Source: Polytrichum commune
Lineage: Eukaryota > Streptophyta > Polytrichopsida > Polytrichales > Polytrichaceae
Direction: 5' to 3'
DNA: 64,000 nt
Assembly (NCBI GenBank): GCA_950295325.1
Contig: OX485804.1
Location: 59,322,429-59,386,428, forward strand
Shown piece after piece: positions 20,108 to 21,243 of this stretch (its first letter is position 1; each line of letters opens with the position of its first letter). The notes under the pieces are model-generated. The model saw only the letters and a program-made list of their open reading frames with translations. It ran no database searches and was not told where the DNA came from. The translations under genes were made by a program, and so were the position numbers.

Positions 20108-20136
20108 GTCGGTTTCAGTGATGGGAGAGGTTTTAC

Positions 20137-20415
20137 CCAAAAACTAATGTTATTTAATCGTGGAAATGCCATATCGGGCGCACCTATAAGAATCGGAACG
20201 AACCAACTACCAAATCCACCGATCATCGTAGGCATAACCACAAAGAAGATCATTAAAACAACGTGAGTTGTTATTAACACATCATAAAGTTGATGATTTC
20301 CACCAAGAATTTGATTGCCAGGCTGTGCTAATTCCATACAAATTAGTACCGAGAAGCATGTACCCATTACTCCGGCAATGGCACCAAAAACGCAATATAG
20401 AGTCCCTATATCTTT
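20137..20415 (-). pseudogene. cox1: Nuclear copy of mitochondrial cox1 fragment (NUMT)
   Basis: Read on the minus strand, 93 codons without a stop match the plant cytochrome c oxidase subunit I N-terminal region: KDIGTLY, then [51 protein letters not shown] and PRLNNISFW. The real protein has about 520 residues, so this is a small internal piece lacking the first ~13 residues. Several substitutions at conserved positions (for example Cys-Val after TLY, and Ser before WFVP) suggest decay after transfer. Apparent N-terminal residues upstream of KDIG come from the D element, not from cox1. It cannot encode a functional subunit. Confidence 0.92.
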
Positions 20416-20614
20416 GGGCATACTAATTGGTTGAGATGATCCTAGTGTTTGCAAGTCCAACCGGTTACATGTTGACATCCTTCGGTTTTCCTTTACTGAA
20501 TCGGGGTATATTCTTCTATAAATTCCTCTAAAATGATGGGTAATTTTCCTGCAGCCTTGGTGAACTTCAACCAGTTAGTTCTTTCTGAAACTCAAGCGGT
20601 TCATGTGTAACTAA

Positions 20615-21204
20615 GGGCCAGTTCACACTATGGCCAAACTTCGAGAGGAGAAGCATTTGGACCAATGAAAATGCAGAAATGTCCAAAGTCCGTCCTCTCG
20701 GCCTTCACACTAAGGCCGGAGTCCAAAGGACGTCGCCTCCAAAAGAGCCTAGGTGGCAACACTTTTAGGAAGTTATGGCGCCAAGAGTTCGGCCTCTCGA
20801 GCAAAGTTTGGGTTGAGCAAAATGCTCGACCCAAACTTCCGTCGAGAGGCCGGACTTTTTTTTCATTAAAATATCAATCATTGACAAGATCTTGACCATT
20901 AGATTGGAGGGGTGATTTTGAGCAAGGAATAAAATGGGATGCTCCTTTGGGTTTGGACTTTGGGCTCGGCCTTTGGAGGCTTCACACTATGGCCTTCCAA
21001 GTCGAGAGGCCGTGCGAGTTCATGGCCAAAGGTTAGGACTTTGGGCTTAGCCTTTGGAGGCTTCACACTATGCCCGGCCAAAGGCTCCACTTACTATATT
21101 TTATTGACTATGTATTTTCAGCTCATTTCTTTGGACTCTCAACAAAGTTTGGCCACTCAATCCCACGGCCTCTCGACTTCGACGGCCATAATGTGAACCG
21201 GCCC
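20615..21204. mobile_element. E MITE, 590 bp, TAA target duplication
   Basis: Inverted ends GGGCCAGTTCACACTATGGC and GCCATAATGTGAACCGGCCC. TSD TAA at 20612-20614 and 21205-21207, inside the D motif GTAACTAACTGCCGG. The interior has repeated segments such as GGCTTCACACTATG (about 20978 and 21058) and GTCGAGAGGCC, giving many small hairpins. Tourist-like, non-coding. Confidence 0.9.
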
Positions 21205-21243
21205 TAAACTGCATGCCGGTTCTCCCCGATCATAGGTCTGTTT

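Follow-up and report, generated by a model that had tools for sequence, protein, structure and literature searches.

Structure of the locus

The window is the whole stretch of DNA analysed here, 64,000 nucleotides (C2:59322429-59386428) from a 70.3-Mb contig of the 407.8-Mb, 64-contig genome of Polytrichum commune. At 20116-21235 it holds a copy of a hAT-like MITE, named D, that is interrupted twice, by a piece of mitochondrial cox1 near its left end and by a second element, E, near its right end. The left end of D (20116-20134, plus strand) matches the D majority sequence CAGTGATGGGGGAGATTTT at 17 of 19 bases, and the window holds four matches to this sequence at three or fewer mismatches where 0.01 are expected by chance in 64 kb. 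The next two bases, 20135-20136, are either filler or cox1 with one change, as judged from the only two other cox1 copies extending to this end, L086 and L121. The cox1 fragment itself (20137-20415, minus strand) corresponds to residues 14-106, is 279 bp long, and is inserted 19 bp from the left end of D. Beyond it the body of D runs on the plus strand from 20416 as far as the insertion of E at 20614, with 79.0-84.7% identity to the six other copies in the window, and a profile built from those six copies recovered the interrupted body at 20409-20628 (nhmmer E 1.5e-57). Element E occupies 590 bp (20615-21204, plus strand), its terminal inverted repeats agree at 19 of 21 positions, and it is flanked by the target duplication TAA on the left (20612-20614) and on the right (21205-21207). 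The right end of D follows at 21208-21235 (plus strand), where the same profile gives a weak match (21207-21235, E 0.084) and the 18-base right-end pattern, GGTTCTCCCCGATCATTG, matches with one mismatch, 0.03 such matches being expected in the window. The 8-bp target duplications of D are GTCGGTTT at 20108-20115 and GTCTGTTT at 21236-21243, and they agree at seven of eight bases.

A preliminary description had already read the left 19 bp of D as split from the rest by 279 bp of minus-strand cox1, placed a 590-bp Tourist-like element at a TAA, and bounded the whole unit by 8-mers matching at seven of eight. These statements are upheld by the COX1 matches given below, by the D homology in 20116-20134, by the repeats of E with TAA on both sides, and by the position of the two 8-mers exactly at the D ends.

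The D and E elements

The six other D copies in the window lie at 11636-11861, 25664-25889, 28016-28242, 28614-28852 (minus strand), 44860-45085 and 60622-60851; they are uninterrupted and 226-239 bp long. Most copies have the ends CAGTGATSGGGGAG...CTCCCCGATCATTG, and among the seven copies 6 to 12 of 14 positions of the candidate terminal inverted repeats are complementary without gaps. When about 20 bases either way of the D ends were scanned, an 8-bp duplication was found in all seven copies, identical at all eight bases in four and at seven in three, the studied copy being one of the three; for fixed ends, random 8-mers from the window reach seven of eight with P 0.0006. The duplication and the ends make D a putative hAT-like MITE, the superfamily label being one that we assume from the length of the duplication. 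A genome search with 20090-20614 gave 4617 first-look candidates, and 40 of these went on to scoring. In its 8-bp duplications, its putative short imperfect terminal repeats and this number of candidates D is like other hAT-like MITEs, whereas the studied copy is unlike them in being interrupted twice. A 22-base D pattern had no match in the viral contigs searched.

D copies in the window and at L096-L120 differ by insertions of 3-5 bp that resemble short tandem duplications. The 3-4 bp insertions of the studied copy were at one point considered private to it; this was dropped, since of its four insertion groups relative to a wider consensus three are partly shared with other copies and one is not. 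Two loci on different contigs, L098 (C6:5850648) and L099 (C5:44064160), each carry two D copies that are arranged alike, which suggests a pair that was duplicated or moved jointly.

Element E has the 3-bp TAA duplication on both sides and the terminal repeats beginning with GGGCC that are found in Tourist-like (PIF/Harbinger) MITEs, a family to which we presume it belongs. The window contains one full copy of E and otherwise only weak partial relatives. Weak relatives of its inner part lie at 10330-10469, 10570-10710 and 11314-11462 (within 10330-11462, minus strand), and GGGCCAYTTCACACA ends, each with five mismatches to the end of E, are present at 9542, 12893, 30819, 37580 and 43920; these are possibly other Tourist-like families. 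Since E lies inside D, it arrived after D or moved with D.

Elsewhere in the window, a possible relic of a DDE transposase lies at 48705-48944 (minus strand), where the match to DDE_1 is weak (Pfam E 0.00064, 19.8 bits, under the curated cut-off of 22). Exon-like open frames at 5212-7237 (plus strand) have no Pfam match above cut-off and a weak PDB match (E 0.087); they may belong to a flavin oxidoreductase of the carotenoid desaturase type.

The cox1 fragment

The minus strand of 20137-20415 translates as plant-type COX1, in 93 codons that align with residues 14-106 of mung bean COX1 without a stop or an indel (PDB E 1.9e-50; Pfam COX1, 82 bits). The window holds no second significant cox1 match, the next best having E 3.5. 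The frame extends into D on both sides, and with a start that lies upstream in D it makes an open frame of 151 amino acids; beyond this frame nothing at the cox1 piece points to a gene.

A plant mitochondrial reference was sought with the mung bean stretch, and in the genome contigs the best 80 of at least 594 stretches were all bacterial, at up to 80% amino-acid identity. In viral contigs the mung bean stretch matched two loci at 48%, and the window's own translation matched two loci at 45%. The other nuclear cox1 copies of the same genome were used as a stand-in for the mitochondrial sequence. Twelve of the 93 residues differ from mung bean, and we rejected the view that all twelve represent decay. 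In a comparison of cox1 copies that excluded L092, three look native, namely C21 (four of five comparable copies), Q44 (three of six) and N47 (no variation listed), while R39C (three of six), A63T (two of four) and A65V (two of four) recur in other nuclear copies. The remaining six, I22V, N58D, F66V, M72V, A76T and N83S, are private to the window copy among the copies compared, and N58 and N83 are invariant in 84 fetched loci (80 bacterial, and four viral from two contigs). Because of these six private changes, two of them at invariant residues, the cox1 piece is, to judge by its sequence, a decaying pseudogene with no evident function, even though its frame remains open.

The fragment has the properties of a nuclear mitochondrial insertion (NUMT). 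Its mitochondrial homology is flanked by nuclear DNA, as the match lies in the 70.3-Mb contig and within a MITE that has target duplications, and a mere fragment with six private changes, albeit with an open frame, is no longer under selection.

Junctions between D and cox1

At the right junction the sequence of D is TTTTTGGGCAT and that of the window CTTTGGGCAT, and the other cox1 copies have CTTTG (L086, L087 and L091) or CTTCA (L089). Thus the four nucleotides TTTG (20413-20416) are common to D and cox1 and are found in three of the four other cox1 copies covering the right end. At the left junction cox1 reads AACAACCAAAAAC (L121) and the window TTTTACCCAAAAAC, a near-blunt joint with zero to two uncertain nucleotides. 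The T-run of D is retained and no loss of D bases is visible at the junctions. In the preliminary description the insertion was near-clean, at the T-run of D, with a TTT-type microhomology and no evident filler. Near-clean it is; however, the microhomology is TTTG and not TTT, and the A-C at 20135-20136 is possibly filler.

Judged from the other nuclear cox1 copies, these junctions fall within the 0-7 bp of microhomology and the little or no target deletion by which NUMTs are recognised. Two published accounts agree with this. Of 71 primate numts classed on both sides, 33 combined a microhomologous joint with a blunt one, and deletions occurred in 41 of 90 (PMC2567098); a plant review gives organelle insertions with 1-7 bp of microhomology or blunt joining (PMC7037861). 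The window locus shares with numts joined by non-homologous end joining a short piece of organelle DNA, a microhomologous joint on one side and a near-blunt one on the other, little or no target loss, and decay; it differs from the published ones in that the target happens to be 19 bp inside the terminus of a MITE.

Past the left junction, cox1 continues as CAGTGACGG in L121 and as CAGTGATGA in L086, which is near the terminal nine bases of D and within 3 nt of register. A near copy of these nine bases, CAGTGAYGG-like, is seen to the left of the cox1 match in L086 (about 1480-1510) and in L121. The left 19 bp could on this account be a continuation of cox1 that resembles a D end, since the donor goes on with CAGTGACGGTGGTAACAACC (L121) or CAGTGATGATGGTAACAACC (L086), whose first bases are common with the end of D. 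We consider this very unlikely and reject it on the alignment: over the 19 bp the score is 28 to D as against -1 and 1 to the two cox1 continuations, which would need gaps and several substitutions within about 20 bp, and the 8-bp duplication is placed exactly at the D terminus. Calculated post hoc, a match of eight in nine bases within an 11-nt range has P of about 0.002 by chance. The resemblance may be a coincidence, or it may hint at weak similarity guiding the donor. It is unlikely that the cox1 donor was drawn to the break by this imperfect match to the D terminus, in which case transposon ends would recruit organelle DNA, or that this D copy made one jump with cox1 as cargo.

cox1 elsewhere in the genome

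A search of the whole genome with the cox1 piece found nine places, and all nine candidates were scored. The matches at the other places are 57 to 281 bp long and 82-96% identical; the ninth place, C4:35675507, was fetched apart from the other eight. When all nine loci were scanned with the D profile (E up to 0.01), with flanks of 1.5 kb for L085-L092 and about 1 kb for L121, D was detected at the window's own locus only. Similarly, in a BLAST of 20000-21400 against L085-L092 the other seven loci matched in cox1 only.

These results bear on the suggestion, also made in the preliminary description, that a transposon was spreading mitochondrial cargo, that is, that D captured cox1 elsewhere and then moved here carrying it. 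The position of cox1 within the target duplication of D would fit such a move, and so would the divergences given below, which are not significantly different and permit capture before insertion here. However, spreading cargo would have the same junctions between element and cargo at more than one place, and D adjoins cox1 at only one of the nine; no other D copy with cox1 is present among them. Furthermore, L096, the highest-scoring other D copy among the 40 scored of 4617 candidates (89% identical over 205 bases), is without cox1, and the insertion shifts the inner CGGTT motifs of D away from the left end by about 280 bp, so that a unit of D and cox1 would be a poor substrate. Mobile cargo is thus quite improbable and was not borne out by the search. 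No report of a MITE carrying organelle DNA was found among the titles and abstract openings listed, a coverage that leaves most subscription journals outside, and the excerpts of PMC5059674 and PMC4632043 describe none. PMC7037861 cites a Y-specific region in which a plastid-derived (NUPT) sequence proliferated 23 times. That sequence lies near retrotransposons, so that organelle DNA adjoins a mobile element there as it does in the window, but the Y-specific fragment multiplied whereas here D adjoins one of nine cox1 places.

Age and order of the insertions

Compared with the consensus of 31 other copies, which were those most like the studied copy together with the window copies, the studied D differs at 16 of 231 sites and has a terminal branch of 0.051. 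For the cox1 piece, 9 of 279 sites depart from the majority of the other fragments when ties are counted as no change, and the terminal branch is 0.013. The two divergences are not significantly different (Fisher p 0.06 with 9/279, and 0.34 if 13/279 is used). Six of the nine cox1 differences are T-to-C, which suggests that C-to-T decay common to the other copies has shifted the cox1 majority too. Given this apparent shift and the choice of D copies, the divergences are rough ages. They are compatible with the insertion of cox1 at or after the arrival of D and do not prove it. Since the difference is not significant, the order of D first and cox1 second rests on the anatomy.

The changes that cox1 has of its own (9/279 against the majority) are also unlike stray mitochondrial reads. 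This matters for the explanation that the locus is an assembly chimaera in which a nuclear cox1 fragment was joined to a D copy. The locus is known from one assembly, but both junctions lie within one D with matching target duplications, and a chimaera is very improbable.

CGGTT motifs and mobility of the interrupted copy

Counted on both strands, the D copy at 25664 has nine CGGTT motifs; this copy alone was subjected to a shuffle test, in which the mean was 0.64 and none of 2000 shuffles reached nine. The other five uninterrupted copies in the window have 8, 8, 8, 5 and 1, and the interrupted copy has 6. In the six uninterrupted copies the first motif is at +30, +30, +34, +35, +59 and +82. 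In the interrupted copy it is at +344; since a mutation has removed the +30 motif of this copy, the shift caused by the insertion itself is about 280 bp. Subterminal repeats bind transposase in known hAT elements. If the CGGTT motifs are such transposase sites, then by this analogy the cox1 insertion probably immobilised the D copy, because the motifs were displaced about 280 bp from its left end.

Probable repair of a break within D

Very probably the cox1 piece is filler from end-joining repair of a break within an old D copy, with E nested in the same copy. An old copy of the abundant hAT-like MITE D would already have been at the site when a double-strand break opened in its T-run, 19 bp from the left end. 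End joining would have sealed this break with the 279-bp mitochondrial filler, with TTTG microhomology on the right, a near-blunt joint on the left and no visible loss of D, and the Tourist-like E would have inserted at the TAA near the right end of D either before or after cox1. Direct observation covers the anatomy of the locus, its duplications, the sequences at the junctions and the lack of D beside the other eight cox1 places; from these we infer the end-joining route and the arrival of cox1 after D. In favour of break repair, the D ends and the 8-bp duplication lie outside both inserts. Against it are the resemblance between cox1 and the D terminus past the left junction, a feature not predicted by plain end joining, and the frame that is still open over 93 codons. 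Both the junctions and the occurrence at a single locus support the proposal in the preliminary description that organelle DNA repaired a break inside a MITE.

The analysis confirms the locus as a NUMT within an old MITE, ordinary in kind, and shows no new route by which mitochondrial DNA spreads. What the locus would offer is a clean case of organelle DNA patching a break in a transposon, in which the many uninterrupted sister copies of D allow both junctions to be placed almost to the base.
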